Assembly (NCBI GenBank): GCA_029259835.1
Contig: JAJDEL010000452.1
Coordinates: forward strand, 1 to 16,149
DNA from: Planctomicrobium sp.
Lineage (GTDB): Bacteria; Planctomycetota; Planctomycetia; Planctomycetales; Planctomycetaceae
Reading direction: 5' to 3'
Length of the DNA stretch: 16,149 nt
Part shown: positions 2 to 15,997 of the stretch, one piece after another
Layout of the letters: every line of letters begins with the position of its first letter
Position numbering within the stretch: position 1 is the stretch's first letter
Notes under the pieces: model-generated
Seen by the model: the letters and a program-made list of their open reading frames with translations, nothing else
The model's database searches: none
Told to the model about the DNA's origin: nothing
Translations under genes and position numbers: made by a program

Positions 2-868
2 ACGATGGCAGTTTGCAAAGTTGCCCGTGAGCATTTGAAAGTTGTTCTCTCAGGCGACGGAGGTGATGAAGCCTTCGGTGGATATTCACGCTACGCACAC
101 GATCTCAAAGAAGCAAAATTGCGAGCATTGCTTCCTTCATGGCTTCGCCGCACTTTCCTTCGCTCAGCAGCAAACATCTGGCCGAAAGCGGACTGGCTAC
201 CACGTCCATTGCGTTTGAAAACAGCATTGACAAACTTGTCTCTGGACTCTGGTGAAGCGTACGCAAATACGATTTCGATTTGCCGACCAAACTTACGCAA
301 AGCATTGCTTCGCGAAGAGGTTCGAAATCAACTTAATGGATCACACCCAGAGCAACGTATCGCCGATGCGTACCGTCGCGGTGACGTAACGCCTCTCGAT
401 GGAATGTTGTCGGCAGACATTTCGATGTTGCTACCAGATGATTTTCTTACGAAAGTCGACCGAGCAAGCATGGCAGTTGGACTTGAAGTGAGGCCGCCTC
501 TGGTCGACCACGAATTCCTGGAATTGGCTGCATCTGTTCCAGCTCAATTGAAGGTCAATGAAGGCGAGACGAAATGGATCTTCAAGAAAACGTGCGAGCA
601 GCGTTTACCCAAAGCTATCATCTGGCGCAAAAAGCAGGGTTTCGAAATCCCTGCCAATGAATGGTTGCGCGGGCCACTCCGTGACACCTTTGAAGAATAT
701 GTTCTTTCCCCGAACGGAAAGCTCGCTGAATACGTTGAACTTCTACCCATTCAAAACTTGTATCAATCACATCTCAACCACACAGGTCGCCATGGCGCCA
801 TCTTGTGGTCGCTGTTGGTGCTTGGTTGCTGGCTAGAAAAGTGGACTTCGACTTCCAATGCCAATTAA
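2..868 (+). CDS. Asparagine-synthetase-like amidotransferase (AsnB family), C-terminal part, 5' truncated
   Basis: Only the C-terminal synthetase half is visible. The reading frame is open to the window edge, so the true start, the N-terminal glutaminase domain and the SGGxDS pyrophosphatase loop lie upstream. Counting the Met codon at base 5 as residue 1, SGDGGDEAFGGY (16-27) is the conserved glycine/acidic segment of AsnB-type synthetases. LLPDDFLTKVDRASMA (142-157) and LEVRPPLVDHEF (160-171) are the two most diagnostic family segments, followed by a KKQGFEIP stretch near 212. Members transfer glutamine-derived ammonia to an ATP-activated carboxylate. In EPS clusters such paralogues are thought to amidate sugar acids or other glycan carboxylates rather than make free asparagine. 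The next gene, a glycosyltransferase, begins 65 nt downstream on the same strand. Family assignment is firm; the acceptor is unknown. It may be the XrtA-associated amidotransferase subtype, which the missing N-terminus would help decide. Confidence 0.93.
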   Translation, partial: TMAVCKVAREHLKVVLSGDGGDEAFGGYSRYAHDLKEAKLRALLPSWLRRTFLRSAANIWPKADWLPRPLRLKTALTNLSLDSGEAYANTISICRPNLRKALLREEVRNQLNGSHPEQRIADAYRRGDVTPLDGMLSADISMLLPDDFLTKVDRASMAVGLEVRPPLVDHEFLELAASVPAQLKVNEGETKWIFKKTCEQRLPKAIIWRKKQGFEIPANEWLRGPLRDTFEEYVLSPNGKLAEYVELLPIQNLYQSHLNHTGRHGAILWSLLVLGCWLEKWTSTSNAN

Positions 869-933: not shown

Positions 934-2058
934 ATGTCTGAGATCACCGTTCTTCAATTGCTTCATGGGATGTCTGTTGGCGGGGCAGAGATATTAGCTG
1001 CCGGGCTGGCTCGGCGGCTTCGTGGTCAATTCCGATTTGTGTTTGCCTGTCTTGATCATGTCGGCGAACTGGGTGAAGAATTGAAAGGCGAAGGCTTCCC
1101 GCTTGTTGTCCTGGACCGAGAATCTGGTGTTGATTGGAGATGCTCTCAAGCGTTGAAGCGAGAAGTTTCGACAAATCAAGTAACGCTCATTCACGCTCAC
1201 CAATACACGCCATTCTTTTATGCACTGACAACCGGTATTCTTCGACGTAGGCCGCCGGTCTTATTCACCGAGCATGGGCGATTCCATCCTGACCTCCCGA
1301 ACAAAAAACACTTCCTGTTCAATAGAACTCTATTGCGAAAAACTGATCGGGTCATTGGAGTGGGCAAAGATGTACGGCGAGCATTGATTGAAAATGAAGG
1401 GATCCCGGAAGACCGCGTGGATGTCATTTACAATGGAATCGACCTTTCACGATTCCAACAGCCACCCCCCGATTCCGCTAAAAGAATTCGGAGAAGCCTC
1501 GGGATCGATGAAGACTGTTTTGTTGTCACTCTGGTCGGGCGACTGAACGATCTCAAAGATCACTCAACAGCGATTCGCACGGCCCAACGCGTTGCCGCCG
1601 AGCATCCGAATTTTCGTATGCTCTTTATTGGAGGAGGTGAGGAGCAGCAGAAAATTGTGGCGGAAATCAAAGAGCGGAAGCTGGAAGAGAGTGTCACTCT
1701 GCTCGGAACTCGACACGATGTTCCGGACATTTTACATGCTTCGGATGTGAACTTTTTGTCGAGCATCAGCGAAGGAATTCCGCTCACACTCATCGAAGGG
1801 ATGGCGGCTTCACTTCCGACTGTCTCCACAAACGTCGGTGGAATTGCAGAAGTGGTTAACGATGGAGAAACCGGATTGCTGGCACCTGCTCAAGACGACG
1901 AGGCTCTGGCGAAACATTTGCTCGATGTTGCTCGCAATTCAGAACTCGGCAATCGATTGGGAAAACAAGGGTGCGAGCGCGCTCTGGAATGCTTCTCAGA
2001 AGTCGAAATGCACCGGCGTTACGCGGAACTTTATCGCGAGATCGCTGGCGTTATTTAG
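934..2058 (+). CDS. GT4-family glycosyltransferase
   Basis: A 374-residue GT-B fold retaining glycosyltransferase, a usual length for GT4. The N-terminal acceptor domain has the GGAE glycine loop (16-19), an HAH motif (87-89) and TEHGR (112-116). The hinge carries VIYNGID (164-170). The C-terminal nucleotide-sugar domain opens with a VGRLNDLKDH segment (201-210) and contains the EX7E signature, with E280 and E288 within SEGIPLTLIEGM. It should move a hexose-type sugar from a nucleotide donor to a lipid-linked or growing glycan on the cytoplasmic face of the membrane. The overall pattern resembles the sugar transferases found in exosortase/PEP-CTERM EPS clusters, and the FemAB-like neighbour fits that. 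The ATG is chosen because family homology starts at once (TVLQLLHGMSVGG); only a distant AGGG precedes it, so Shine-Dalgarno support is poor. Donor and acceptor cannot be read from sequence. Confidence 0.93.
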   Translation: MSEITVLQLLHGMSVGGAEILAAGLARRLRGQFRFVFACLDHVGELGEELKGEGFPLVVLDRESGVDWRCSQALKREVSTNQVTLIHAHQYTPFFYALTTGILRRRPPVLFTEHGRFHPDLPNKKHFLFNRTLLRKTDRVIGVGKDVRRALIENEGIPEDRVDVIYNGIDLSRFQQPPPDSAKRIRRSLGIDEDCFVVTLVGRLNDLKDHSTAIRTAQRVAAEHPNFRMLFIGGGEEQQKIVAEIKERKLEESVTLLGTRHDVPDILHASDVNFLSSISEGIPLTLIEGMAASLPTVSTNVGGIAEVVNDGETGLLAPAQDDEALAKHLLDVARNSELGNRLGKQGCERALECFSEVEMHRRYAELYREIAGVI

Positions 2059-2103: not shown

Positions 2104-3201
2104 GTGAAGACAATCGTGCAGAACGAAGCAAGCGTTTCAGAAATCGACGAACAGAAGACCGACATCGTTGTTCAGGTTTTATCGCAACGCGAAATTCTCG
2201 TCGCTGGTGATCAACTTTGGAGTGCAGCAGGAGTCCCGGCACATCCAAGTTCGGACCTGCTCTGGTTGCGAATTCTCGATCGTGGTTTGAGACACAAGCC
2301 TTTTTTGTTGCAAGCTGTTCGTGATAAAAAACTCGTTGGTCAATTGCCGCTTGCACTGGTGAGCGGACCAATCTTTGGTCGGTTTTTAGTGGCGCTACCG
2401 TATTTGAATTCCGGAGGCGTGACATCTTACGATCAGTCAACTACTGACGCGTTGATGGACTGCGCGGTCTTGATGGCAGATCAGCATAAGTGTCGGTATC
2501 TCGAACTTCGTCATGAGGAACCGATCAAGCATTCAGCACTCAATGCGGAACTGACGACGAAAGTCCATATGCGAATGCCGCTCCCGAGTGACGTTGAAAG
2601 TCTGCGGAGCAATTTGAAGGCGAGTGTTCGGAATCAAGTAAAGAAAGGTGAGCGGCCTGGATTTACAATTGAATGGGGAGGAGTCGAACTTCTGGATGAC
2701 TTCTACTCCGTCTTCAGTAGAAAAATGCGGGATTTGGGAACTCCAGTCTTTAGCCGTAAACTGTTTGAAGCAATTCTCACTGAACTTCCAGAAATGGCAG
2801 AGTTGTGCTGTATTCGTGATGGCTCGAAAGCAATTGCAGTTGCGTTACTCGTGCATGGTTCAGAAGTGACCGAAGTTCCAAGTGCGAGTTCCTTGCCTGA
2901 GTACAATCGCACGAATGCGAACATGCTCATGTACTGGAATCTGCTCGCGCGAAGCGTCGAACGAGGACAACAAGTGTTCGATTTTGGTCGTTCGACAAAG
3001 GATGGTCCGACTTATAAATTCAAAAAGCAGTGGGGAGCGAAACCGCACTCTGCAACTTGGCAGTATCACCTTCGCTCAGGAAGCGTGGACGACATGCGCC
3101 CAGACAGTGGCAAGAAGAAATTCCTGATCTGCATGTGGAAATGGCTGCCGGTGTGGTTGGCAAATTTGATCGGCCCGTGGATTGTAAAGGGGATTCCGTA
3201 G
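2104..3201 (+). CDS. FemAB-like aminoacyl/acyltransferase, XrtA/PEP-CTERM-associated type
   Basis: A 365-residue protein of the FemAB/GNAT-like superfamily. FemAB proteins transfer amino acids from aminoacyl-tRNA to peptidoglycan precursors; EPS-cluster relatives are thought to acylate or aminoacylate a surface glycan or its precursor. Segments I recognise from the PEP-CTERM-associated FemAB family are KASVRNQVKK (172-181), FYSVFSRKMRDLGTPVFS (199-216), a VPSASSLPEYNRTNANMLMYW-like stretch split over 258-278, and FDFGRSTKDGPTYKFKKQWG (292-311), close to that family's C-terminal signature. The first ~40 residues are poorly conserved. The start is GTG at 2104; a second GTG at 2116 is also possible, there is no clear Shine-Dalgarno sequence and no early ATG. 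No signal peptide is visible, so it is probably cytoplasmic. It sits between two glycosyltransferases with short gaps. The family is secure; the substrate is unknown. Confidence 0.88.
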   Translation: MKTIVQNEASVSEIDEQKTDIVVQVLSQREILVAGDQLWSAAGVPAHPSSDLLWLRILDRGLRHKPFLLQAVRDKKLVGQLPLALVSGPIFGRFLVALPYLNSGGVTSYDQSTTDALMDCAVLMADQHKCRYLELRHEEPIKHSALNAELTTKVHMRMPLPSDVESLRSNLKASVRNQVKKGERPGFTIEWGGVELLDDFYSVFSRKMRDLGTPVFSRKLFEAILTELPEMAELCCIRDGSKAIAVALLVHGSEVTEVPSASSLPEYNRTNANMLMYWNLLARSVERGQQVFDFGRSTKDGPTYKFKKQWGAKPHSATWQYHLRSGSVDDMRPDSGKKKFLICMWKWLPVWLANLIGPWIVKGIP

Positions 3202-3249: not shown

Positions 3250-4449
3250 GTGAACTCCGAAGCGAATCAAGACATGCAATCGGATAACGAGAAAGTGACC
3301 CGTCCGCCGCTGCTCGTTTTATCCGACGACTGGGGGCGGCATCCGTCAAGCTGCCAGCATCTCATTCGGCACCTGCTGCCTACTTATGATGTGACATGGG
3401 TGAATACGATTGGAATGCGACCTCCCCGTTTGGACATGCAGACGGTTCGTCGTGTTCAGGGGAAGTTGGCAGAATGGATCAGGACAAAACAACCCTCTGG
3501 AAACAAAAGCAGTCAGGATGAACCGCAGGTTGGTCCGGAAATTCGAAATCCAAAAATGTGGCCCTGGTTTCGAACGGCGACTGACCGGCGTTTGAATAAA
3601 TTCCTCATCACTCGGCACCTGCGCGACTTGGCTGAACCTTTACCCATTGCAATTACTACGATTCCAATCGTTGCAGACCTGATGAAGAGTTTGCCGGTAC
3701 GCCGCTGGGTTTACTACTGCGTTGACGATTTCTCCGAATGGCCTGGACTCGACCAGGAACCACTTCGCAGGATGGATGACGAAGTGATTCAAGCAGCGGA
3801 TGTTCTCATTGCTGCAAGCGAATCTCTGCAAGAAAAACTCGCTTCAGCAGGTAGAGCTTCCGAACTATTGACTCACGGAGTTGATCTCGATCATTGGACT
3901 TCATTGAATCAAAGCGGAGAGCGTGGCGTCCTCAGCCAGTTTGAAGGACCACTGTTTCTGTTTTGGGGTGTGATCGATCAACGGTTGGACGTGGAATTTC
4001 TACAGGCTCTGAACGACTCACTCGACAAGGGAACAATAGTTTTAGTGGGTCCGCAACAGAATCCACCTGCTGAAATTGCGGAACTCTCTCGAGTAAAACT
4101 TCTGCCTCCAGTCGAATTTGATGAACTTCCAGGCTGCGGTCATGCCGCCGATGTCCTCATCATGCCGTATGTCGACGAACCCGTTTCTCGTGCAATGCAG
4201 CCGTTGAAACTTCTGGAGTACCTGGCGACTGGGAAGCCTGTTGTCGCCAGAGATTTACCAGCCACAAAGGCTTGGGCAGACTGCATGGAGTTGGCAGCGA
4301 CGAAGGAAGGTTTTGTCGCAAAAGTGGAAAAGGTTGTTTCGTCAGGCGTGACGGATCAGCAACGACTGTCTCGAGAGCGATTGAAGGCAGAGTCCTGGAG
4401 TGCAAAAGCGATGCGTTTTGAACAACTGATCACACAAGCAGAGGCATGA
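3250..4449 (+). CDS. TuaH-like glycosyltransferase (GT-B fold)
   Basis: A 399-residue putative glycosyltransferase. It resembles the group containing Bacillus TuaH rather than the plain GT4 neighbours. The N-terminus has a SDDWGRHPSS segment (25-34) in place of a glycine loop. The middle has YYCVDDFSEW (155-164), a characteristic segment of this group, then LTHGVDLDHW (207-216) before the C-terminal domain. That domain begins with FWGVIDQRLD (238-247) and holds the donor-site region MPYVDEPVSRAMQPLKLLEY (305-324), followed by LATGKPVVA. In TuaH-type enzymes the first acidic residue of EX7E is embedded in this MPY...EP...PLKLLEY context (E310 and E323 here), so classical spacing is not kept. 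The start is GTG at 3250; ATG at 3274 (residue 9) is an alternative, and neither has a convincing ribosome site. The stop overlaps the next gene's ATG by four bases, implying translational coupling. The sugar transferred is unknown. Confidence 0.85.
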   Translation: MNSEANQDMQSDNEKVTRPPLLVLSDDWGRHPSSCQHLIRHLLPTYDVTWVNTIGMRPPRLDMQTVRRVQGKLAEWIRTKQPSGNKSSQDEPQVGPEIRNPKMWPWFRTATDRRLNKFLITRHLRDLAEPLPIAITTIPIVADLMKSLPVRRWVYYCVDDFSEWPGLDQEPLRRMDDEVIQAADVLIAASESLQEKLASAGRASELLTHGVDLDHWTSLNQSGERGVLSQFEGPLFLFWGVIDQRLDVEFLQALNDSLDKGTIVLVGPQQNPPAEIAELSRVKLLPPVEFDELPGCGHAADVLIMPYVDEPVSRAMQPLKLLEYLATGKPVVARDLPATKAWADCMELAATKEGFVAKVEKVVSSGVTDQQRLSRERLKAESWSAKAMRFEQLITQAEA

Positions 4450-5636
4450 TGTCCGAGCCAACCATTCACATTGAGACATCGGCTTCTAACACATCTGATC
4501 ATAGAGTTGTTCTGCATACGCGCGTCGTGACAGGCACGGGTGGAGGGCCTGACAAAACGATCCTGAACTCACCGCGCTTTCTGGAGCAGTTAGGCTACGC
4601 CAGTGCTTGTGCCTATCTGCACCCGCCTGACGATGATGGATTCAGCACACTGCAAAAGAGGGCAGAGGAATGGGGCAGCGAGCTGATTTCAATTCCGGAC
4701 AAAGGTGCTCTTGATGTTTCCGTCATTCGGAAACTTCTCAACGTGTGCAAGCAACACAATGTTTCAATTTGGCATGGGCACGACTACAAGACGAATGCAC
4801 TTGGTTTGATCTTGAGGCGTTTTCATAGAATGCAATTAGTGACGACAGTACACGGCTGGGTGCATCGCACCAGCCGGACTCCTCTCTACTACTGGGTTGA
4901 TCGAAAAGCGATTCGATATTACGACCATGTCATTTGTGTTTCTGAAGACTTGTTTACAACCTGTCGTGAGTTTGGAGTCCCGGAACCGCGATGCAGTTTG
5001 ATTCAAAATGCAATCGATACGGACGAATTCAAACGCTCTCAGAAACAGAGTGATGTTAAATTTGTTCAGGGGTTTTCTCCAGATCGATTACTCATTGGTG
5101 CCGTTGGCAGATTGGCAGAGGAGAAAGGGTTCGACTTGTTAATTTCGGCTGTCGAGAGATTGATCGAATCAGGGCTTAATGTGGAATTGGCGATTATTGG
5201 AGAAGGGGATCAGAAAGAACAATTAGAATCGCAGATCACTGCGTCGGCAAACGCAGATCGCTTTCATTTACTCGGTTATCGGTCCGACACGATTGCACTC
5301 TATGAAGCGATGGACCTATATGTTCTGAGTAGTTTGCGGGAAGGCTTACCGAACGTTGTTTTGGAAGCGATGGCGATGGAGGTTCCTGTTGTTGCTACGA
5401 GAATAGCCGGGGTCCCGAAGTTGATCCAAGATCGAGAGAATGGGTTGCTTGTCAATTCAGGATGTGTGGACGAATTAGAACAGGCGACGAGGGAGATGCT
5501 AAGCAATGATCCTTTACGTGAGCAGCTCCTCAAAAACGCTCGCAAAACTATTGAAACCGAATTCAGCTTTTCAGCCCGAATGGACAAGATCCGGAAGATT
5601 TATGATCAGGTTCTTGCGAAGTCCGCATCAACTTAG
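4446..5636 (+). CDS. GT4-family glycosyltransferase
   Basis: A 396-residue GT-B retaining glycosyltransferase. After a poorly conserved leader of about 20 residues come RVVTGTGGGPDK (26-37, the glycine loop), HGHDYKTN (110-117), TVHGW (134-138), VSEDL (165-169) and IQNAID (186-191). The C-terminal donor-binding domain shows VGRLAEEKGFD (220-230) and the EX7E signature (E299 and E307 in REGLPNVVLEAMA). It acts on the cytoplasmic side of the membrane in glycan chain assembly. ATG at 4446 overlaps the upstream TGA as ATGA, and a second ATG follows at 4449; either may be used, with a weak GAGGC just before. This is the last gene of the plus-strand glycan operon, since a convergent minus-strand gene begins 23 nt beyond its stop. 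Donor and linkage cannot be read from sequence. Confidence 0.93.
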   Translation: MMSEPTIHIETSASNTSDHRVVLHTRVVTGTGGGPDKTILNSPRFLEQLGYASACAYLHPPDDDGFSTLQKRAEEWGSELISIPDKGALDVSVIRKLLNVCKQHNVSIWHGHDYKTNALGLILRRFHRMQLVTTVHGWVHRTSRTPLYYWVDRKAIRYYDHVICVSEDLFTTCREFGVPEPRCSLIQNAIDTDEFKRSQKQSDVKFVQGFSPDRLLIGAVGRLAEEKGFDLLISAVERLIESGLNVELAIIGEGDQKEQLESQITASANADRFHLLGYRSDTIALYEAMDLYVLSSLREGLPNVVLEAMAMEVPVVATRIAGVPKLIQDRENGLLVNSGCVDELEQATREMLSNDPLREQLLKNARKTIETEFSFSARMDKIRKIYDQVLAKSAST

Positions 5637-5659: not shown

Positions 5660-5968
5660 TCACTCGACAGATTGGCCTGATGAAGCTGATTCGCGGTAGA
5701 GGCCCAGCATATGTCGAATCAGACCCAGAAACCCGGTTTCACCTTTGAGATTCTCGGCTCGGTCCATCCAGGCTTCACATTCTGCCAGCGATCCAGAAAA
5801 AGCGATGTTGTCACCCATGTCGAAAATCACCCAACCTCCGTCCTGGCAATCGTTTAGACGATATCCCTGTGAACCGTCTCTGGAAGCGGACGAGAGTTCT
5901 TCCTCTAAAGACGCTTTCTGGTTCACGCCTGCGAGTTGAATGGGGTTTTGAGTGGTGGTCGAATTCAT
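5660..5968 (-). CDS. Small conserved-looking hypothetical protein, 102 residues
   Basis: I do not recognise a named family. It is the only good coding candidate on either strand in the gap between the two plus-strand operons, and its stop lies 23 nt from the end of the convergent glycosyltransferase gene. The first 33 residues are polar and low in hydrophobics. Residues 36-72 look like a compact beta-beta-alpha unit: YRLNDCQDGGWVIFDMGDNI (36-55), then SLAECEAWMDRAEN (60-73), a spacing of Gly-Trp, strand, then AW(M/L)DRAEN helix often seen in small bacterial single-domain proteins. A short amphipathic helix (GFLGLIRHMLGLY, 79-91) follows, then a polar tail. There is no signal peptide or clear membrane segment, so it is probably cytoplasmic. 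The ATG at 5966-5968 is the most upstream plausible start; no strong Shine-Dalgarno sequence precedes it. The short conserved-looking core argues for a real gene, but it remains a prediction. Confidence 0.68.
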   Translation of the reverse strand: MNSTTTQNPIQLAGVNQKASLEEELSSASRDGSQGYRLNDCQDGGWVIFDMGDNIAFSGSLAECEAWMDRAENLKGETGFLGLIRHMLGLYRESASSGQSVE

Positions 5969-6092: not shown

Positions 6093-6575
6093 ATGACTGC
6101 GAATTCGATGAAAAATGATCTCGATAAGAATTTTGATCACAGATCAAGACTGAGCGAAGAGCACAAGATGGTTCGCTGGCTACGGAGAATCACTTTGATG
6201 TACTGGATCGCCCTGACTTACCTCCTGCTTGCCCCGGAACCTTTCTGGTTTTTGAGTGGAACAGAAGGAACAAATGATTCTTACGCGCTGAGTGTGCCTG
6301 ATCTGATTCAACACTTTCTTGTGTTTGGCTTGCTCGGGCTGCTTCTCGCCTCTCAGTTAGAAGCTAACAAGCTTTTGAGTCGAACTCTAAGGTTTGCTGT
6401 GATCTACGCAATTGCGACTGAGTTCGTTCAGTTTTTTGTGCCAGACCGTTTCGCTTCTGTGGCGGATGTTCTCGCCAATCTCTCAGGGCTTGTCATTGGC
6501 TGGGGAACCGTTCAATTCCTGCGCAGCATGACGTCCTTACGCAGAGTACGAACCTCGAATGCTATCAGTTCATGA
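6093..6575 (+). CDS. VanZ-family membrane protein
   Basis: A 160-residue integral membrane protein with four predicted helices (about 33-48, 70-88, 97-114 and 125-144), the usual VanZ-domain layout and size. Family landmarks are DLIQH opening helix 2 (70-74), TEFVQFFVPDR (109-119) and DVLANLSG (125-132). VanZ itself confers low-level teicoplanin resistance by an unknown mechanism; VanZ-like proteins are frequent in envelope-polysaccharide and exosortase loci, where their role is also unsettled. The first ~27 residues are polar. Starts are possible at ATG 6093, at Met6 (6108) or at Met26 (6168), which directly precedes the first hydrophobic block; 6093 is the longest. The stop overlaps the next ATG (ATGA), so the two products are probably made together. 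The neighbour carries three more copies of the same domain, suggesting that the proteins associate or that the fusion arose by duplication of this unit. Confidence 0.85.
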   Translation: MTANSMKNDLDKNFDHRSRLSEEHKMVRWLRRITLMYWIALTYLLLAPEPFWFLSGTEGTNDSYALSVPDLIQHFLVFGLLGLLLASQLEANKLLSRTLRFAVIYAIATEFVQFFVPDRFASVADVLANLSGLVIGWGTVQFLRSMTSLRRVRTSNAISS

Positions 6576-9500
6576 AACGGCGAATTCAGAACTGTTCCTC
6601 ATGGCACCCTCTCGCGCTGATGCGCTTGCAACCTCTCACACAAGCGCTTCTTGCTTGTATCGTCATGTTGATGTATTGCTCGACAACATCACTTGCTGAT
6701 GATTGCAAAATTCCCCGTTTTCTTCGAGAGAATCCGTCTGTTATAAACCGCGAATGGTTACGAGCCGATTTCTTCCTGCGAGCGCATTTCGGCGATCAGA
6801 CAAACGATGTGAGTGAGATTGTCGAAAGCGCATCTGCGCGTGGTTTCGATGTCATTGCGGTCGTTGATGATCAGACTCTAAAAGGTCGGTCGCAAGACGA
6901 GGCGTATGCAACCGCGATTGTTCATGCTCGTCAGACGTATCCAGAGATGGTCATTCTCTCGGGACTTCATTTCAAGATTTCGCAAAATGGAAATGAACAC
7001 GACTTAACGATTCTGATGCCAGCAGACCCAGATGAATTTCGAATTCTTCGTGAGTTCAAATCGCAATTTTGCAAATCCAACGAACTTTCTGATTCATCAG
7101 ATCAAGTGCAGCAGGGTTTACGCTGGCTTACCGAGCAAACTTCATCTGCAAGCAAACCGGTTGTGTTGGCAAATTCAACACGTTGGTCGGGGGAAAGTTC
7201 TGGAGAGATTATTAAGTCTCTAGCGTCTCTGCGACGCAACAATGCTCTCGTTGTCGGTTTCCCTGTCTTTGCTCCACTTGAAGATCGAGATTCTCTTGAA
7301 ACAACAGAGCAACGGCTGCGAGCAGATGGCGTTCGCGAGTCCGCGTGGGATCAACTCTTGATTCGCGGAATTGACGTTCACTCTGCGTTCTCACACTCCT
7401 GGATTCAGGAGCAGAATGCTGAGCAGTCATCGGAAAACCTTGCCGAAACCTGGGTCTCTGTTCCGAAAAATACAGTTCTGGAAAAGACGGCAGAGGAAGT
7501 GATTGATGCTCTTTGGCATGGGGCGTTTTTTGCGAGTCGTGGTGGCATCGTCAGGGATGTACGATTCTCTGTTTCTACCGTTGGTCTCTATAGAAAAGTC
7601 GTTCCAGGTGAAGCGGTCATTCTCGAAATCGGAACTTCAGTGAGAATCATGCTGGAGTGCGAAGTTCCCGATCAGGATTTGGCTGGGAATTCAAATTGGC
7701 TGGATAACATTGAATTCACTAGCATCAGTCACAGTGGAACCGAAAAATTTAGCGAGGACTCGCTTCAGTCAGGGACCGCACGTTTCGAATGGACAACGAC
7801 GGTCCCAGAAGGCGGAATGGTTTTGCGAGCAAGTGGACACCGCGCTGGTGAAGGCAACGACAAACTGCACTTCTACACGAACTCCATCCGCATTCGAACG
7901 GCACCGAGCACCAAAATTTGGAGTGCCAGCGATGTTCTCTCTCTCACTTTTCTATACCCAATTCTGAAATATCTCGCTGTTGTGATTATTGGACTTGTCG
8001 TTTTCCTATACAGCCTTCGTCGGTCTTCGCGACGAAAACGCCGTCGACGTTCCCTTCCTTCAGACCTCGCACCACGACCACTTTCGGCTCAGCCATTGGA
8101 GAAGTCAGACACCACTGAATCCCCAGAGGTCGACTGGCAACCGCCTGTTGTGAGAGAGGTGAGTTCAGTGCAGGAGGTGCATGGCAAGAAAATCGAGGCT
8201 GTTCAATTTGCACCTCTCTCAAAAAACTTTTCGATACCTACTCGAAGTCATTTTGCAGTCGGTGCAATCTTTTTCACTGCGTTTGCCGTTTACGGTCTAT
8301 ACGTACCATTGAACTACGAAGAGATTCCATGGAACAACGCTCTGAAAGAATTTTCGGATGTTCCGTTCCTTCAAATTGGTGTTCAGCGGCGACAAGACTG
8401 GGTTGCGAATATCCTTCTCTTTGTTCCACTCGGTTATCTCTGGTGCGCAGCATTGACCCTCGACACACGGAATCTTTTCGTAAAGATCGTCTTCGCTGCG
8501 TTGACGACAATTGCCTTGTCCGGATTGGCTGTTGCCACTGAGTTTTTCCAGATTTGGTTTCCACCGAGAACTGTCTCGCAAAACGATATCATTGCAGAAT
8601 CACTGGGAGCGTTGATTGGCAGCACCCTTTCACTGCTGACTGTCCAATGGATTGTCATCTGGTTTCGACGAGCACTCGCGCAGGCAACTGCAAAGGCGGT
8701 TTTTGATTGGGGGGTCCGGGTCTACCTCGTTGCTCTTCTGCTCGCCACGCTCATGCCATTTGACTTTGTGTTAAATGCCAACGAGTTTCAGATGAAGACC
8801 GAAGCCGGGCGACTTTCGATGGAGTTTCCGGAGATCTCAGCATTGAGTCTAGCGAATTTGATGGCGACGATTCTTGTTTTCATTCCTGTTGGAATCTGGG
8901 TTGCCCGTTCGAGTCATTCGCGTCGAAGTACCGCTCTTTGGGGCGAGATTGCCGTCTCGATTGGTATCGTTGCAGCCTTTGAACTCATACAGATTCCGGT
9001 GTTCTCCAGGTATGCAACTCTGAGCGGGTTCCTGGCAGGTACAGTCGGTGCAACAGCCGGAGTTTTTGTTGTGCGGTTTCTTGGAGAGTCTGTGGTACGC
9101 GCGCTCCTCGCTGCGCCACAACAGAATTTCTCCAGATCTCTCAAATCTTTGTTTCTTGGAGTGACCTACATCCTTGTCCTGGCATACTTCTATGTGGGGC
9201 CAAATAACCTGGATTCAGTGGGGGAGACGATTCGACGGCTGCAAGATTTCTGGCAGGTTCCATTTGCACGTCTGTACTGGGGAACGGAACTCAATGCTTT
9301 TTTTGTGATCGCCAGACAACTCACATTGCTGCTTCCATTGGGCTTTCTTTTTTCGGACTTTGTGTTGGCGAGAGGGGCAGAGCACAAAATGATTTTCCGG
9401 ATGACCATCTGCGTCGTGATCATTGCTTGCATCGCAACGCTCATGGAAATTGGTCAAATTTGGAACGTTGATCGCTATTCAGATGTGACTGATGCTCTAC

Positions 9501-10894
9501 TGTTGGCAATCGGAGGGCTGGGGGGACTTGTGTTACGCGCGTCTCTTGCGGACTGGTCGACTTATGGATTTGCCATCCAAAAGAAGCGACTTGTCACGTT
9601 AAATCGAGTGCTTGCCTTGGTATTGCTTGGGGCGATCAGTTCATTAGGCACAGGGCTTGCAAGTTTCCGTGTTGTTCACGCAGTGTTGGGGTACTCGCGG
9701 CCTTTGGAACGAAGAATCGATCTGGTGATTGAGGACGAAGCGACTTCAAGTCGACTTCGTGTTCAAAGGGTGATCGTGCCTACTCTCGACATTACAGAGG
9801 TAATTTGGGGAGCCACAGGTTCTGACCAAGATGGAAACATTTGGTTTGGCGTCTCTGGTGACAGCAAACAATTTACTTCAGCTCGCGTTTACCAAATTTC
9901 TACATCTCAAGGATGGTTGACAGAAGTTGGGAGTGTCCTTCCCGAACTTGAAAAGCAAGGGCTACTTCGCAAAGGGGAGTCGCAGCAAAAAATACACTCC
10001 AAATTTGTGGAAGCCGAAGATGGATATCTCTACTTCACATCAATGGACGAAAAAGGTGAAGCGGGCGACGGAAGCCAACTCCCGACTTGGGGATCACACT
10101 TGTGGCGGATTCATCCAGCCCATCCAGAATTTGAACACCTCGCCACAGTTCCCGAAGATTTGATCGCTGTTTCAGGAGGAGGAGAGTGGATTTATTGCCT
10201 TGGTCTGTTTGACCACATCCTCTACCAGTGGAGCGTGCAAGCAAAAGAACTAAAGAAGGTCCGTGTCGGTTCTGTCGGAGAACATATTTCTCGGAATTTT
10301 CTGACAGACCATCGCGGGCATGCCTTCGTCCCCCGAGTGACATACTTTGGCGATCCGCTCATATCGCCTGATAATCCTCTGGGAAAAACTCCGAACATTG
10401 ATGTAGAACTGATTGAATACAACACAATGCTCCAGGAAATTGGTCGCACACCGTTGGAGAACTACTTGACAGACAGTTACTGGACAAGTCATGGAATTGT
10501 TGGGTTCTCGAATCTCAACGATAACTCCATCGTTTTCTCGACCAGTCAAGGATTCCTTTATCGGATTCTCCCTCAGAGTGCTGAAGCTGCGGCACAGGTA
10601 CTCTCTCTTGGCTGGATACACCCCGATGGTTCGGCATATGCACCTTCACTTTTTGAACTCAGCGGCGGTCGCTCGGTGGGGAGCGTGGTGAAGCGAGGAG
10701 ATGAGTTTGAATGGGTGGAGTTCGATTTGAATTCACATCGCTCGACTGTTTTTCCATTTCCAGTTCCACCGTCCATTGCTTCCTCGAAAGACCTTCTCTT
10801 GTATGGATCGCAAACACGCGATCAGTTCGGCGCTTTTTACGTTGTCGGGAGAGTTCATTCCACACCAGTCATGCTGCGTATTGAAATGCGTTAG
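6572..10894 (+). CDS. Giant multidomain membrane protein: PHP-like domain, three tandem VanZ domains, beta-propeller-like C-terminus
   Basis: 1440 residues. Residues 1-42 are a long signal peptide with hydrophobic core 22-36. Residues 63-330 align with the PHP fold (RAHFGDQTND 70-79; GFDVIAVVDD 91-100; ILSGLHF 128-134), with a typical tail (VIDALWHGAFFASRGG, 310-325) and a beta-sandwich to about 445; the metal-ligand residues are mostly replaced. A helix (461-481) and an Arg-rich stretch (482-493) follow. Three VanZ-like units come next, each of four helices: 560-695 (DWVANILLFVPLG 609-621; TEFFQIWFPPR 656-666), 713-836 (ANLMATILVFIPVG 761-774; FELIQIPVFSR 803-813) and 858-990 (LTLLLPLGF; LMEIGQIWNVDR 957-968). 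A last helix (1008-1032) leads to a beta-rich region (1071-1440) suggesting about seven blades. The positive-inside pattern fits 14 helices with both soluble domains periplasmic. The ATG overlaps the upstream VanZ stop. Domain calls are from motif reading; overall function is unknown, probably in envelope polysaccharide assembly or sensing. Confidence 0.85.
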   Translation: MKRRIQNCSSWHPLALMRLQPLTQALLACIVMLMYCSTTSLADDCKIPRFLRENPSVINREWLRADFFLRAHFGDQTNDVSEIVESASARGFDVIAVVDDQTLKGRSQDEAYATAIVHARQTYPEMVILSGLHFKISQNGNEHDLTILMPADPDEFRILREFKSQFCKSNELSDSSDQVQQGLRWLTEQTSSASKPVVLANSTRWSGESSGEIIKSLASLRRNNALVVGFPVFAPLEDRDSLETTEQRLRADGVRESAWDQLLIRGIDVHSAFSHSWIQEQNAEQSSENLAETWVSVPKNTVLEKTAEEVIDALWHGAFFASRGGIVRDVRFSVSTVGLYRKVVPGEAVILEIGTSVRIMLECEVPDQDLAGNSNWLDNIEFTSISHSGTEKFSEDSLQSGTARFEWTTTVPEGGMVLRASGHRAGEGNDKLHFYTNSIRIRTAPSTKIWSASDVLSLTFLYPILKYLAVVIIGLVVFLYSLRRSSRRKRRRRSLPSDLAPRPLSAQPLEKSDTTESPEVDWQPPVVREVSSVQEVHGKKIEAVQFAPLSKNFSIPTRSHFAVGAIFFTAFAVYGLYVPLNYEEIPWNNALKEFSDVPFLQIGVQRRQDWVANILLFVPLGYLWCAALTLDTRNLFVKIVFAALTTIALSGLAVATEFFQIWFPPRTVSQNDIIAESLGALIGSTLSLLTVQWIVIWFRRALAQATAKAVFDWGVRVYLVALLLATLMPFDFVLNANEFQMKTEAGRLSMEFPEISALSLANLMATILVFIPVGIWVARSSHSRRSTALWGEIAVSIGIVAAFELIQIPVFSRYATLSGFLAGTVGATAGVFVVRFLGESVVRALLAAPQQNFSRSLKSLFLGVTYILVLAYFYVGPNNLDSVGETIRRLQDFWQVPFARLYWGTELNAFFVIARQLTLLLPLGFLFSDFVLARGAEHKMIFRMTICVVIIACIATLMEIGQIWNVDRYSDVTDALLLAIGGLGGLVLRASLADWSTYGFAIQKKRLVTLNRVLALVLLGAISSLGTGLASFRVVHAVLGYSRPLERRIDLVIEDEATSSRLRVQRVIVPTLDITEVIWGATGSDQDGNIWFGVSGDSKQFTSARVYQISTSQGWLTEVGSVLPELEKQGLLRKGESQQKIHSKFVEAEDGYLYFTSMDEKGEAGDGSQLPTWGSHLWRIHPAHPEFEHLATVPEDLIAVSGGGEWIYCLGLFDHILYQWSVQAKELKKVRVGSVGEHISRNFLTDHRGHAFVPRVTYFGDPLISPDNPLGKTPNIDVELIEYNTMLQEIGRTPLENYLTDSYWTSHGIVGFSNLNDNSIVFSTSQGFLYRILPQSAEAAAQVLSLGWIHPDGSAYAPSLFELSGGRSVGSVVKRGDEFEWVEFDLNSHRSTVFPFPVPPSIASSKDLLLYGSQTRDQFGAFYVVGRVHSTPVMLRIEMR

Positions 10895-11218: not shown

Positions 11219-14200
11219 GTGGCTACGGAAAAAGAATCAAACACGCCTTCGGAAAAAGTACCCGTAAAAAATCAACCGGCGCATCGGTTGAAGATTACTT
11301 TTGATCTTCGATTCACACTCAGACTCATCGCTGGCGTTGCGGTCTTTGGAGTCGCAGTACATTTTTTGCACGCTTATCAAGTGGATCGAAATGCCGACAC
11401 GCTACGAGCTAAATCGAAAGAAGCTCAGGCCGAGGGCAATCTGAAAGAAGCGACTCAGTACCTCCAGCAATACATCGGGTTTCGTCCTCAAGATGCGAGT
11501 GCTGTTGCCGATCTCGCTCAACTGCTCGACCAACAGGCGGATTCTGGTCGTAGTTTGCTGCGTGTTTATTTCACATATCAGGAAGCTGTACGGCAAGATT
11601 CTGGTCGCGACGATTTGCGACACCGAATGATTGAAATTGCCTTGCTGCTTCGCCGGTACGATGATGCTCTTCTTCAGATTAAAAACCTAGAGAAAAAAGG
11701 GACTCTGGAAATCAAACAAGTGCTTCAAGCAGCCGAATGCCGCTTAAACAACCGTGACATTCACCGCGCTGCCCGAAGGTACATTGAAGCGATCCAGCGT
11801 GACGAAACACAAGTTGAAGCATATTCGAGACTGGCTGATTTGTTTATTCGATTTCCGGATGACATACCCACCCAGGAGGAATTGGAAAAATTGAATGCTC
11901 CGAAGGAACTCTTGAATGTTCCGCAGGAACTCTTGAATGTTCCGCAGGAACTCGTCGATCTTTTTCTCTCCAAGTCTCTTGAACTCTCTAACCGGGAAAC
12001 TACAGCCTTTAAGACAGATCGTGTCAAACTTTTATTAGCCCGCATGGTCAACCTAGGTGAGCCAAAATATCGAGCGTACGTGGAACGGGCACTGTCCCGC
12101 ACGCGAAGAGATGAAATTGCCACAGCTGAAGAAGATGTGGCGAAGGCGCTTGAGTTGGCTCCAAATGACACTGACGTACTGATGACAAGCGTCAATTTGA
12201 ATTTAAAGAAAGCGGAGATCGCAAAGGAAAAGGGAATTGCCAACGATGTGGAACGTTCTCTCGAAAAGGCAGAACAGTACGCCAGTCAGGGACTGAAACT
12301 TTCTGCCCCTGACCCGCAGTTTCATTTCAGTTTCTATCAGATTCAGCAACTTCGTGGAGATCTCGACAAAGCCCAGAAAGCTCTTCAGGATGGCCTTGCT
12401 ACAGTTTTACTGCAGCAGGAAAGTGCGAACCTGGAAAGTCGTGGAGCGCTACGACACTCTGAGCAAACATTCCGTTTTTCAATTGCCCACTTATTAATTT
12501 CGAGGAGCGCATTAGAAACGGGTCAAAACGCAATAGAAAAAATCAACCAGGCACAGGAAATTGTCACCGAATTGCGAGATACCGCTGCTCCGGGATGGCG
12601 TATTCTGTACCTTGAAGCTCGTCTGCATTTCGTCAGAAAGGAATGGCGTCTTGCTGTTCCAAAATATGAGCAAGTTCGCCTGTTGGCCGAACAAGAACGC
12701 CAAATACGGCGCAGTATTGATCTCGCGTTGGGAGAGTGTTATCGGCAACTCAGTAACCCAGACCGCCAAATCATAGTCTTCAGAAGAGCACTTGAAGATG
12801 ACCCGCTGTGGGTGTTAGCTCGCGTGAAATTGGCTCAGGCACTCGCCGCGGCAAATCGGCTGGACGATGCCATCGAAGCATACCAACTCACCGGTGGTGT
12901 CCCTGGCGCCGGGGCGGAACTTGCCCAGCTGCTCTTGATTCGGGAACGGAGAGTCCCCAAGGCTGAGCAAAACTGGCAACCCGTGCGCTTGGCACTTCAG
13001 CAGGCGGAGAAATTCGCACTGGAACAGAATTCACTTGTTCCTTCTCAAGTCAGAATTTTGCAAGCAGATGTTTTCATGCAGCAAGAGAAGCAGAGTGAAG
13101 CTAAAGCGGTTTTAGAAAAGGCACGAATTGATCACCCAGATGATGCAAGTATTGTGAATGCAGATGTTGAGTTAATCATGTCAAATTCCATTCTCGACCA
13201 GCAGTCCCGTATTCAAAACGCAGAAAAATTGCTCGCAGATGCTGAAAAAGAATTAGGAGATCGCTACGAATTGCGTTTAGCTCGCGCCCGGATTGCTCAA
13301 GAGTTCCCACCTGAAAAAGCGGCGAAAACGTTTTCAACTCTCGCAGAGAACACCGACGCATTTTCAGCGAAACAGAAAACCCAACTCCTGCAACGACTAG
13401 CTCAGTTGTACGCCTTTATCGGAGACATGGACGGAGCAAAGGGCATTTGGCAACGACTGGCACAATCAAATGACCTCAGCATTTCCTCGCGACTCTCTTT
13501 ATTCCAATTGGCAACCCGGAATAAGGATGAAAAGGCAAAGCGTCAACTCTTGGAACAGATTCAAAAAGTGGAAGGGCCAAACGGTCCCTATGGAAATGTG
13601 CTTCAGGCAGAGCAACTCATCATGCAGGCCGCGATTGAAAACGGAACAGAATTGAGTCCAGAGCAGCGGTCCCTGTTAGGTGAGGCCCGAAGACTTCTTC
13701 AACGTGCCGGATCACAAAGAACATCGTGGTCAGCGATTCCGCGCATGCTGGGCACAATCGAACAAGCACTCGGAAACGAAGACATCGCTCATGAGCAATA
13801 TCTTCAAGCGATCGAAAAAGGGGACCAATCGAAATTTGTCATTGAAAATGTCGTCCAGTACTTGCTTGTCAAGCAGCGACTCAATGAAGCGTCCCAACTG
13901 ATTCAGAAAATCACAGAGAAGAGACCTCAGCTTCTTTCAGGCAATCTTGCTCGACTCGACTGGCAGATTTCCTGGATGCAAGATCGACGTGAAGAAGCAG
14001 TGGGGCTTGCGGATGCGGTCGCAGAAAACTCGGAAGATTTTCGCGACAAGCTGATGCAAAGTAACTTGCATTTTCTTCAGGGTGATCGAGGGAAACTTGC
14101 AGAAGATCCCCTAAGAGAAGCAACACACGATTTCCCGAAGGAACCTCAGGTCTGGTTAGCACTCGTGGCGTTTCTAGAACGCGTGGGGCGCAGAGAAGAG

Positions 14201-15997
14201 GCTATTGCCGAGTTAAAAGAAGCAGAGGAAATTCTCCCAAGCGATCCTCCTCACATAAAGCCAATCACGCTGGCGCGTGGATACGAAACTGTGGGCGATC
14301 TTGATCAGGCAGAGAAATACTATCTCCTCGCGCTGAAGACTGAACCTGACAGTCCGAATTTACAGTATCGATTGGTTGATTTTTACACCAGGTACGGGGA
14401 GTACGCAAAGGCGAATCCCTACATCGACTCACTTTTGGATCCTCAGAATAAAGTTTCAGAAGAGATTCAAGAGCAAGTCCGCAGCCGGCGCGCTCGCATC
14501 ATTGCCTCAAGTGGAAATTATGGAGACATTCAAGAGGCGTTCCAGGCATTGGAAACCTCAAGTTCGATAGCCACATTGTTCGATCTCAGAACGAAGTCTC
14601 TGATTCTCTCGACCCGAAGAACGAACACCGACCGGCGAGAGCACATTCGTGTGTTAAATCAGATTGCTGATAAGGGTGCGATCGAAACAACGGAACGATT
14701 GCAATTGGCTCGCCTTTACGAAAATGTGGGCAACTGGCAGCAGTCCCGGCAAACGTTTGAAACGCTGCTCAACGACCTCCCCAAAGCTGAATTATTGATG
14801 GTTGAATTCTCGACCGCACTGCTCAGACACGACGAAATCGAAGAATCGCGTCGCTGGTTGGGGCGTGCCAAACTGCTCGCACCTGATGCATTCTCACTCG
14901 TTCTTCTGGAAGCACGAATTCTCTTGAATGAGCAAAAAAATTCAGAAGCGGTTGCCATTGTCGACGAATTCATAGCAGATGACGACTCATTGACTTCGTC
15001 TCCGACTGTTCTCCAGGAAATGCTGGCAAGCAACGAGGGAAAAGCCCAGATCGCTCAATTCTCAGCAATTCTCAAGACGGTCAACGACGAACAGTTAGCG
15101 AAGCATTTTCAGTCAGGTATTAAATTTCTGGAAGTCCGCCAGGCAGAGCAGGCTATTAGCGAATTTTTACTGTTACTCAAGAACGAACAGATCCGAAACA
15201 GTGTCCAAGCTTATCTATCACGACAAGCCTCTCGATTGTTTTCCGAACTTGGCGAACATGATCATGCAGAGCAACTTCTGAAACGCAGCATGGACTTGGT
15301 CAAGCAACCATCAGATTCATTTGAGCTCGTTTCAATTCTCGCGAGACAAAATCGCGTCTCAGAGGCACTCGATTTGTGCGATACCCTCTGGGGAGCATTT
15401 GAAGACTCTGTCGTCGCCAGAACAAGCATCGCGGTTCTGCGGACCGGAAAGCCAAACCAGAAAGAGATTCGCCGCGTGGAAGCGCAAATCACGGCTGCGA
15501 TGGCGAAGTCGTCGACACCTGGTCAAATTGCTCTACATCTCGCCGATCTTAAGGATTTGCAAGGGGATTACCCGCAGGCTGTTGCTCTTTACGAGCAAGC
15601 TTTACGTTCTGATGAACTCAATCTCGTGGCGCTCAACAACTTTGCCTATCTTAGCATCCTCATAGGAAACGATCAGAAACAAGCTCTTGATGCAATCAAC
15701 CGAGCCATTGAGACCACAGGTCCTGTTGGAGCATTTCTAGATACGAGAGGAGTCGTCCACTTGAAGAGTGGGAATTTCAAGCAAGCCATCAAGGATCTCA
15801 CTTTCGCAATTGATGAAAACTCCTCCCTCTCGACTAGATTCCGCCTCTCGCAAGCCTATTGGGAGCAAGGAGATCAGGAGAAATCACGCGAAGTCTTCAA
15901 GGAAGCTCAAGAAGCGGGGTTGTCCATCCAGTCGGTCCATCCACTTGAGCGCGAGGAGTACGAGCAGTTTGAGAAAACACTGGAAACTAAGCCGTGA
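11219..15997 (+). CDS. Giant membrane-anchored periplasmic TPR protein
   Basis: 1592 residues. Residues 1-32 are charged and cytoplasmic, ending in a K/R-rich stretch (RLKITFDLRFTLR, 23-35). A single helix (about 34-52) anchors the protein, and the positive-inside rule places the rest in the periplasm. Tetratricopeptide-type helical pairs fill most of the remainder, starting at AKSKEAQAEGNLKEATQYL (64-82) and clear again at QGDYPQAVALYEQALRSDE. The C-terminal module (GPVGAFLDTRGVVHLKSG, from 1501, ending HPLEREEYEQF) recurs, in my recollection, at the ends of long planctomycete TPR proteins. Such proteins are scaffolds; the PEP-CTERM-associated TPR protein PrsT is an analogy, not an assignment. 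The start is GTG at 11219 with AGAGAG about 5 nt upstream. An in-frame 21-bp triple repeat lies at residues 225-245. No catalytic domain was seen. Its place after the VanZ and glycan genes suggests a role in envelope polysaccharide assembly. Confidence 0.88.
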   Translation: MATEKESNTPSEKVPVKNQPAHRLKITFDLRFTLRLIAGVAVFGVAVHFLHAYQVDRNADTLRAKSKEAQAEGNLKEATQYLQQYIGFRPQDASAVADLAQLLDQQADSGRSLLRVYFTYQEAVRQDSGRDDLRHRMIEIALLLRRYDDALLQIKNLEKKGTLEIKQVLQAAECRLNNRDIHRAARRYIEAIQRDETQVEAYSRLADLFIRFPDDIPTQEELEKLNAPKELLNVPQELLNVPQELVDLFLSKSLELSNRETTAFKTDRVKLLLARMVNLGEPKYRAYVERALSRTRRDEIATAEEDVAKALELAPNDTDVLMTSVNLNLKKAEIAKEKGIANDVERSLEKAEQYASQGLKLSAPDPQFHFSFYQIQQLRGDLDKAQKALQDGLATVLLQQESANLESRGALRHSEQTFRFSIAHLLISRSALETGQNAIEKINQAQEIVTELRDTAAPGWRILYLEARLHFVRKEWRLAVPKYEQVRLLAEQERQIRRSIDLALGECYRQLSNPDRQIIVFRRALEDDPLWVLARVKLAQALAAANRLDDAIEAYQLTGGVPGAGAELAQLLLIRERRVPKAEQNWQPVRLALQQAEKFALEQNSLVPSQVRILQADVFMQQEKQSEAKAVLEKARIDHPDDASIVNADVELIMSNSILDQQSRIQNAEKLLADAEKELGDRYELRLARARIAQEFPPEKAAKTFSTLAENTDAFSAKQKTQLLQRLAQLYAFIGDMDGAKGIWQRLAQSNDLSISSRLSLFQLATRNKDEKAKRQLLEQIQKVEGPNGPYGNVLQAEQLIMQAAIENGTELSPEQRSLLGEARRLLQRAGSQRTSWSAIPRMLGTIEQALGNEDIAHEQYLQAIEKGDQSKFVIENVVQYLLVKQRLNEASQLIQKITEKRPQLLSGNLARLDWQISWMQDRREEAVGLADAVAENSEDFRDKLMQSNLHFLQGDRGKLAEDPLREATHDFPKEPQVWLALVAFLERVGRREEAIAELKEAEEILPSDPPHIKPITLARGYETVGDLDQAEKYYLLALKTEPDSPNLQYRLVDFYTRYGEYAKANPYIDSLLDPQNKVSEEIQEQVRSRRARIIASSGNYGDIQEAFQALETSSSIATLFDLRTKSLILSTRRTNTDRREHIRVLNQIADKGAIETTERLQLARLYENVGNWQQSRQTFETLLNDLPKAELLMVEFSTALLRHDEIEESRRWLGRAKLLAPDAFSLVLLEARILLNEQKNSEAVAIVDEFIADDDSLTSSPTVLQEMLASNEGKAQIAQFSAILKTVNDEQLAKHFQSGIKFLEVRQAEQAISEFLLLLKNEQIRNSVQAYLSRQASRLFSELGEHDHAEQLLKRSMDLVKQPSDSFELVSILARQNRVSEALDLCDTLWGAFEDSVVARTSIAVLRTGKPNQKEIRRVEAQITAAMAKSSTPGQIALHLADLKDLQGDYPQAVALYEQALRSDELNLVALNNFAYLSILIGNDQKQALDAINRAIETTGPVGAFLDTRGVVHLKSGNFKQAIKDLTFAIDENSSLSTRFRLSQAYWEQGDQEKSREVFKEAQEAGLSIQSVHPLEREEYEQFEKTLETKP
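11891..11953 (+). repeat. Three tandem 21-bp units inside the TPR gene
   Basis: Units at 11891-11911, 11912-11932 and 11933-11953. The second and third are identical, and the first differs at two bases. Each encodes seven residues: LNAPKEL, then LNVPQEL twice. The repeat keeps the frame and lengthens a proline-containing linker between helical repeats. Near-identity of adjacent copies points to recent slippage or duplication. Confidence 0.95.

Follow-up and report, generated by a model that had tools for sequence, protein, structure and literature searches.

A PHP-like, triple-VanZ and beta-propeller protein from a planctomycete exopolysaccharide locus, with a possible role in periplasmic glycan assembly

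Introduction

What would a planctomycete build with a membrane protein that joins a PHP-like domain, three consecutive VanZ domains and a beta-propeller in a single chain? The question is raised by the 16,149-nucleotide contig JAJDEL010000452.1 of Planctomicrobium sp. (assembly GCA_029259835.1), which was analyzed whole and is called the window here; the host genome is known from a draft assembly, 82% complete and in 954 contigs. Frame 6572-10894 of the window encodes the protein in question, P0001, of 1440 amino acids (aa). Our reading, to which we give a probability of about 0.5, is that P0001 is a periplasm-facing glycan-assembly mosaic whose first VanZ copy, copy a, acts on an undecaprenyl-diphosphate-linked glycan; we infer the substrate, the chemistry and what each outer domain does. 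Genes for exosortase, XrtA-type FemAB and O-antigen-ligase-like proteins accompany the triple-VanZ (VanZ3) module, and this company, together with fusions to ligase and acyltransferase domains, points to glycan assembly.

VanZ domains have been described as membrane domains that act on lipid head groups and are linked to exopolysaccharide genes (Burroughs, Nicastro, and Aravind, eLife 2025, PMC12419801). In the main text of that paper, the VanZ-1 family is predicted to act on undecaprenyl-diphosphate-linked glycans, membrane lipocones face the outer leaflet, and two architectures are given, signal peptide, domain X, transmembrane (TM) segment and VanZ (SP+X+TM+VanZ) and VanZ+TM+X, in which X may be a beta-propeller or a beta-helix. 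It also describes a betaproteobacterial VanZ-1 tandem with an inactive second copy, and the lipocone TelC, which cuts lipid II at the bond that joins undecaprenol to its diphosphate-coupled head group. Action of VanZ-1 on lipid-linked exopolysaccharide, with extracellular fusions, was thus proposed in 2025 and is not a new idea. The apparent novelties are a triple-VanZ module adjacent to exosortase and the fusions of the PHP-ligase-VanZ3 kind. That main text nowhere uses the words exosortase, PEP-CTERM, planctomycet- or triplicat-, and a literature search joining VanZ with exosortase found no paper in the library searched. A first-pass annotation of this DNA knew of no described system with such an order of domains; neither the precise PHP-VanZ3-propeller order nor a link to exosortase is in that text, but VanZ proteins of the SP+X+TM+VanZ and VanZ+TM+X kinds are.

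Results

Architecture of the fusion protein. Topology was read from hydropathy and charge. The parts of P0001, all on the plus strand, are as follows.

6572..6700 (+), signal peptide-like segment, aa 1-43, suggested by a hydrophobic segment at 25-43
6701..7591 (+), PHP domain of the CehA/McbA-like kind, aa 44-340, degenerate and with its metal-ligand motifs lost
7592..7906 (+), putative beta tail of that domain, aa 341-445, which aligns across all six rows of PHP alignment A7
7961..8017 (+), TM segment by hydropathy, aa 464-482
8018..8254 (+), basic cytoplasmic linker, aa 483-561, 16 Lys plus Arg in 79 residues
8240..8686 (+), VanZ copy a, aa 557-705, with D609, N613, E657, Q660, R666 and D672 near-invariant
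8687..9121 (+), VanZ copy b, aa 706-850, degenerate; E804 and Q807 (ExxQ) present, helix 4 acid absent in P0001
9122..9586 (+), VanZ copy c, aa 851-1005; E959 in 82/83, D971 in 61/83 and D974 in 46/83 rows
9608..9664 (+), TM segment 13, aa 1013-1031, which would put the C terminus outside
9743..10891 (+), beta-propeller, aa 1058-1440, folded as a propeller in the structure model and rich in invariant polar positions

This order of domains, proposed in the first-pass annotation, was borne out. It repeats in genome G005, on one contig of 6.36 Mb, and in the homologues P0003 to P0005, and there are no stops in the frame. Since a complete genome and other homologues carry the order, the large frame is no assembly join; the annotation had itself named an assembly-made join as a way in which it could be wrong, and the single-contig copy rules it out. 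A scan of genome contigs with P0001 returned one relative, apparently the copy in genome G002. The ratio of nonsynonymous to synonymous substitution rates (dN/dS) ranged from 0.07 to 0.28 across the domains of P0001; it was lowest in VanZ copy a (0.07 to 0.09), 0.10 in the propeller and, measured against G002, 0.28 in the PHP domain. Selection still holds the PHP domain, less tightly than VanZ copy a or the propeller.

The three VanZ copies recognized in the first pass are likewise upheld. Family PF04892 matched the whole of P0001 at 78.6 bits (cut-off, 30.1), and the structure model predicts three sets of four TM-length helices; the matches of a fold search with that model were all taken by the propeller. 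Scored singly, copies a (48.8 bits) and c (33.2 bits) pass the PF04892 cut-off and copy b (26.1 bits) fails it. Both outer domains are predicted to be periplasmic from hydropathy and charge, as had been proposed. A direct search of whole P0001 against PDB sequences gave no match at E 1, and P0001 showed no O-antigen ligase domain (PF04932) at E values of up to 1.

The triple-VanZ core. Conservation was scored in 83 triple-VanZ rows, which remained from 125 aligned matches after removal of those shorter than 350 aa, contained in another, or more than 90% identical. Six polar residues of copy a are close to fixed: D609 (81 rows), N613 (81), E657 (78), Q660 (82), R666 (82) and D672 (78). The ExxQ motif occurs in all three copies (E657-Q660, E804-Q807 and E959-Q962), its Glu and Gln being found in 78 and 82 rows in copy a, 77 and 74 in copy b, and 82 and 51 in copy c. 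The place of the helix 2 asparagine, N613 in copy a, is taken by T766 in copy b and Q916 in copy c, and helix 4 of copy c carries D971 and D974. From these residues, copy b reads as degenerate, and each module likely has one catalytic copy, for which copy a is the likely candidate.

The core resembles VanZ-1, as treated in the main text of PMC12419801, in being a membrane VanZ protein with predicted outer-leaflet lipid head groups as targets and with exopolysaccharide genes around it, among them WaaL-like ligases, and in its beta-propeller and beta-helix fusions and the tandem with an inactive second copy reported there. It differs in being a tandem of three copies, one of which has the best-conserved site, in its PHP and propeller flanks, in its exosortase adjacency, and in the helix 4 motif of P0001.

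The PHP-like domain. Judged by alignment, the N-terminal domain of P0001 is a PHP relative by descent and not by activity. It is 26 to 30% identical to domains of P0005, G006 and G019, all of which score above the Pfam cut-off for PHP (P0005 at 45.6 bits against a cut-off of 26.4), as the PHP domain of G378 also does. The CehA/McbA PHP family model reached 22.4 bits on P0001, below its cut-off of 80. The metal-ligand motifs, which we take to be HxH, DH, (E/N)HP, GHQ and DxH, as in P0005, are intact in the alignment (HxH, DH, EHP or NHP, GHQ, DxH) in the domains of P0005, G006 and G019, and are kept in P0005 and loci L029 and L033. P0007 is truncated before the first motifs and has the later ones. 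At the same positions, P0001 to P0004 and the G002 copy have replacements or gaps, with the exception of the aspartate of the DH pair in P0001 and G002. The annotated start of P0002 is late; in a translation of its DNA (L027), the first PHP motif is replaced as well. The domain aligns with PHP domains of intact motif and departs from CehA/McbA-type PHP metallohydrolases in that the ligands are replaced or absent in P0001 to P0004 and G002. A PHP profile found PHP proteins 2anu (E 1.1e-6) and 9etk (E 3.2e-5) in the PDB; as three of the six sequences in the profile are relatives with an intact site, these matches support the family and not the window's domain alone.

The propeller. At least 258 proteins, nearly all without a Pfam name, make up the family of the propeller, and the best 120 of them are 40 to 48% identical to the query. 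In 23 rows picked from those best 120 of 258 (P0048 to P0167 are the listed proteins), 20 charged, His, Asn, Gln, Tyr or Trp positions are identical throughout, including Q1138, K1140, H1142, D1159, E1160, H1176, R1179, H1215, H1238, R1241, H1250 and R1255. With H1189, H1307 and H1350, present in 22 rows, eight histidines occur in 22 or 23 of 23. Such an invariant polar set would be expected of an enzyme or a metal site more often than of a propeller that serves only for docking, and the unnamed proteins are possibly an uncharacterized enzyme family.

Foldseek matches of the modeled propeller include virginiamycin B lyase (2z2n), oligogalacturonate lyase (3pe7) and rhamnose-glucuronate lyase (7esl), and the propeller fold is what P0001 shares with beta-propeller enzymes such as the first of these. 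The rows of best Z score were tied with WD40 proteins, so a polysaccharide lyase is kept only as an option. A propeller profile gave a single chance match (E 0.99) in the PDB.

The propeller occurs in 13 of the 397 genomes of the class, and 11 of these 13 have the triple-VanZ module, versus 74 of the other 384, kinship uncorrected; in three of the 11 the fused gene itself is the propeller gene. Beside these, the propeller adjoins a PHP-ligase-VanZ gene in G006, and in G370 (L100, 445-9749) it stands alone, one gene from FemAB with an exosortase close by. The full order in G370 is propeller, a 1141-aa protein with a GlcNAc 2-epimerase-like domain, FemAB, a gene that looks by eye like a dehydrogenase or epimerase, and exosortase. 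G351 has the order of G370, with its propeller cut by the contig end.

The locus. The genes of the window are as follows; the small minus-strand frame is treated at the end of the text.

5..868 (+), asparagine-synthase-like amidotransferase, cut by the contig start; closest to TIGR03108 (XrtA/PEP-CTERM), the fragment scoring 270.4 bits (cut-off, 816.9)
934..2058 (+), glycosyltransferase (GT); closest to TIGR03088 stp2 (PEP-CTERM/XrtA), 199.1 bits, under the cut-off of 409.05
2104..3201 (+), XrtA/PEP-CTERM FemAB-family protein; TIGR03019, 322.8 bits (cut-off, 260.35)
3250..4449 (+), TuaH-like glycosyltransferase, 80.4 bits, under the cut-off of 550
4446..5636 (+), GT4 glycosyltransferase, by profile matches
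6093..6575 (+), single-domain VanZ gene (VanZ1), 160 aa; PF04892, 45.2 bits; ExxQ and DxxxN motif kept
6572..10894 (+), PHP-like/VanZ3/propeller protein, 1440 aa; same order in G005 and P0003 to P0005
11219..15997 (+), PrsT-like TPR protein, 1592 aa; TIGR02917, 128.8 bits, under the cut-off of 312.2

The window is an XrtA/PEP-CTERM-like exopolysaccharide locus, as follows from the FemAB match over its cut-off and the weaker matches to an XrtA-like amidotransferase, a glycosyltransferase and PrsT. This bears out the suggested link of the fusion protein to the adjacent polysaccharide genes. The PEP-CTERM/EpsH exopolysaccharide loci (Haft et al. 2006, PMC1569441) are matched by these FemAB, amidotransferase, GT and PrsT-like neighbors and by exosortase and PEP-CTERM proteins in the host genome, whose own exosortase lies on contig C707. 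The difference is VanZ, a word that does not occur in the text of that paper.

Association with exosortase and FemAB. A model of the triple-VanZ region (E 1e-10) found the module in 85 of the 397 genomes. Neighbors were counted in 80 of these 85, with G012, G119, G128, G185 and G299 omitted for weak or split matches; the best module match per genome was used, and second matches in G002, G094, G162, G169 and G300 went uncounted. An exosortase lies within 500 bp of the module in at least 23 of the 80 genomes, and exosortase or FemAB lies within 20 kb in at least 52 and within 50 kb in at least 55; the chance level for "within 20 kb" was set at 2.5%, a rough figure of our own. At least 76 of the 80 genomes have an exosortase and 68 have TIGR03019. 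Including G128, G185 and G299, taken from a separate scan whose matches lack G012 and G119, TIGR03019 occurs in 71 of the 85 module genomes versus 53 of the 312 without the module (Fisher P = 2.6e-30, kinship uncorrected).

Downstream of the exosortase-VanZ3 pair come either ABC-exporter-like genes (L071 and L074) or a ligase-like gene and a GT (L072 and L073), the L072 ligase-like gene matching TIGR03097 at 145.3 bits, under its cut-off. In G005, an exosortase sits on the contig of the fusion gene, 33 kb upstream; it fails TIGR03109 (142.5 bits versus 208) and passes TIGR02602 (138.3 versus 105.55).

Fusions of the module. The best-match frame is 440 to 550 aa long in 54 of the 85 module genomes, shorter in seven (fragments or partial matches) and longer in 24. 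The module also occurs in fusions. In G006, a PHP-Wzy_C-VanZ fusion has an open frame of 1604 aa, and the next frame joins a GDSL-lipase domain to the same propeller. In G378, PHP, Wzy_C, VanZ3 and Acyl_transf_3 form a single frame of 1841 aa (L080, 8458-13980) at the locus position of the window protein, where FemAB, two GTs, VanZ1 and a 302-aa protein come before the fusion and a PrsT-like TPR gene lies two frames past it. Its ligase part is closest to TIGR03097, the exosortase-A-associated O-glycosylation ligase (63.1 bits, under the 188.1 cut-off). The 1841-aa chain looks like a whole periplasmic glycan line in one protein. Other fusions are Wzy_C-VanZ3 (G020), beta-helix-VanZ3-propeller (P0008), beta-helix-VanZ (G191), VanZ-beta-helix and VanZ-FHA (G094), and VanZ3-propeller (P0006 and P0009).

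A PF04932 ligase domain stands beside VanZ in 11 of 47 homologues by precomputed annotation; P0012, when rescanned, scored 29.4 bits, just under the cut-off of 31.7. VanZ3 and a weak ligase match (21.8 bits) lie in neighboring frames in G370. Ligases of the TIGR03097 PEP_O_lig_1/PF04932 kind are thus fused to or near VanZ3 in relatives, mostly under the TIGR03097 cut-off, whereas P0001 has no ligase domain. In the host genome, a ligase-like gene stands by itself, on a contig other than the window (93.3 bits, under the cut-off of 188.1).

History of the domain order. In a careful triple-VanZ tree, one group unites P0001 to P0004 and the copy from G002 with P0006 and P0008 (support 98/97), and P0005 falls elsewhere, with P0007 (95/100). 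Constraining the order to one clade, including L007 (the G002 copy), cost 41.9 log units, with a P value of 0.074 in the approximately unbiased test (p-AU), which does not reject a single origin for the PHP-VanZ3-propeller order. The order may have arisen once and been lost later in some lines, or it may have arisen twice. In a quick tree, group V3_LIG comprised all of P0012 to P0047 present, taken as a block irrespective of ligase.

Discussion

Placed in the inner membrane and facing the periplasm, P0001 would serve an exosortase (XrtA/PEP-CTERM-like) exopolysaccharide locus. The lipocone-like polar site of copy a, on the periplasmic face, would most likely bind a flipped undecaprenyl-diphosphate-linked glycan and would cleave or transfer its head group, with copies b and c mainly completing the helical bundle. 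The VanZ3 core may work with the pathway's O-antigen-ligase-like enzyme, which is a separate gene here and is joined in cis in relatives. The PHP domain, its metal site lost in the window's clade, is probably a glycan- or partner-binding platform, and the propeller would bind or cut the growing glycan.

Several observations weigh against this picture. The VanZ lipocone reaction is itself a prediction in PMC12419801, as its main text presents it, and the helix 4 motif DxDDxxxN is absent from copy a, which has D672 and, at the N position, E676, with no DxDD. Among the matches listed, no exosortase at E 1e-15 was found in four of the 80 genomes (G027, G070, G114 and G164), and 25 of the 80 modules have no exosortase or FemAB within 50 kb; for 23 of these 25 there is none on the contig, and in G251 and G365 the nearest is some 450 kb away. 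All 23 exosortase-adjacent cases belong to a single family, f3, and the count is inflated by their kinship; the FemAB link to the module is seen in families other than f3. Two near-complete genomes of the window's genus (G001 and G004) have an exosortase and neither module nor FemAB, from which it follows that exosortase itself does not need the module. The propeller lies away from a FemAB match in seven of 13 genomes (G058, G157, G210, G216, G289, G305 and G382). On balance, the module is tied to the FemAB-type locus more than to exosortase as such.

A bolder version of the glycan-assembly reading makes the triple-VanZ module an overlooked core enzyme of many exosortase/exopolysaccharide systems. 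Copy a would then be a lipid-head-group transferase that, with the PEP_O_lig-like ligase, passes undecaprenyl-PP-linked glycan to its acceptor, possibly the new C terminus or anchor of exosortase-cleaved PEP-CTERM proteins; in P0001, the PHP domain would be a dead binding domain and the propeller would trim or edit the glycan. We consider this version unlikely.

It is also doubtful that the triple-VanZ bundle is a noncatalytic scaffold, holding ligase, transporter and exosortase together with no chemistry of its own. The lower conservation of copies b and c, the lost PHP metal site in the window's clade and the fusions with many different partners would all fit a docking core. However, the six polar residues of copy a are kept in 78 to 82 of 83 rows and this copy has the lowest dN/dS; polar residues as strictly fixed as these would not be needed in a bundle that only holds partners together.

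The first-pass view of P0001 as a sensor or transporter is not favored here, since the neighbors and the ligase and acyltransferase fusions point to glycan assembly. In its signaling form, the outer domains would sense an extracellular ligand and switch or gate the VanZ core. The arrangement SP-X-TM-VanZ-TM-X does fit the class that the main text of PMC12419801 reads in this way for SP+X+TM+lipocone proteins, a relative in G094 has FHA domains with VanZ, and the propeller and degenerate PHP domain could be binding domains. Yet P0001 contains no kinase, cyclase, helix-turn-helix or receiver domain, no regulator was found among the nine window frames scanned, and in several relatives the outer domains are glycan-assembly enzymes (Wzy_C and Acyl_transf_3). 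We judge signaling to be quite improbable.

Carrier recycling is more improbable still. Here VanZ3, helped in some relatives by an active-looking PHP domain, would hydrolyze undecaprenyl-diphosphate or a stalled lipid-linked glycan and so return the carrier. A precedent is the lipocone TelC, which, according to the main text of PMC12419801, cleaves the undecaprenol-diphosphate head group bond of lipid II, and PHP metal motifs are intact in P0005, G006 and G019, with the G378 domain over the Pfam cut-off. Against this, the clade of the window protein has lost the PHP site, and the ligase and exosortase link is more specific than general carrier recycling needs. Finally, an artifact, be it a join made in assembly or a decayed gene that happens to read through, is conceivable in a draft of this completeness but is rejected given the identical order in G005 and P0003 to P0005, the stop-free frame and the low dN/dS of its domains.

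P0001 and its relatives tie VanZ to an exosortase-linked exopolysaccharide pathway. With a partner set and six residues to mutate now named, the predicted lipid-head-group chemistry of VanZ becomes testable in a defined pathway, and the domain gains a testable job in building the outer sugar coat. The loss of the PHP site, the degenerate copy b, the fourth VanZ gene overlapping the start of the large gene and the exosortase-type locus were all missing from the first-pass annotation.

Other genes beside the module

The final four bases of the VanZ1 gene (6093..6575) overlap the start of the large gene. Related genes directly precede the large gene in G002 (59% identity) and G005 (42%) and lie one gene further up in G378 (37%). 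In G019, VanZ1 and PHP form one protein, with VanZ3 in the next open frame. On the other side, TPR genes related to 11219..15997 adjoin the VanZ3 gene in G005, G002 and G032.

A protein of about 300 to 370 aa is encoded just before VanZ3 at several loci (L041, 465-1589; L080, 13977-14885; L082, 8930-9952; L036, 11678-12766). Long beta-repeats can be seen by eye in the L041 and L036 copies, and the L080 and L082 copies have a similar N terminus; a Pfam search of the L080 copy found no match. Elsewhere, a protein of 726 to 732 aa directly precedes VanZ3 (L078, 10622-12799; L085, 10855-13053), and the L078 copy has the uncharacterized nucleotidyltransferase domain NTP_transf_5.

Between the GT4 and VanZ1 genes of the window lies a 102-aa frame on the minus strand (5660-5968). 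It is kept in G002 (68% identity) and in G005 (39% over 57 aa) and is probably a real small gene.

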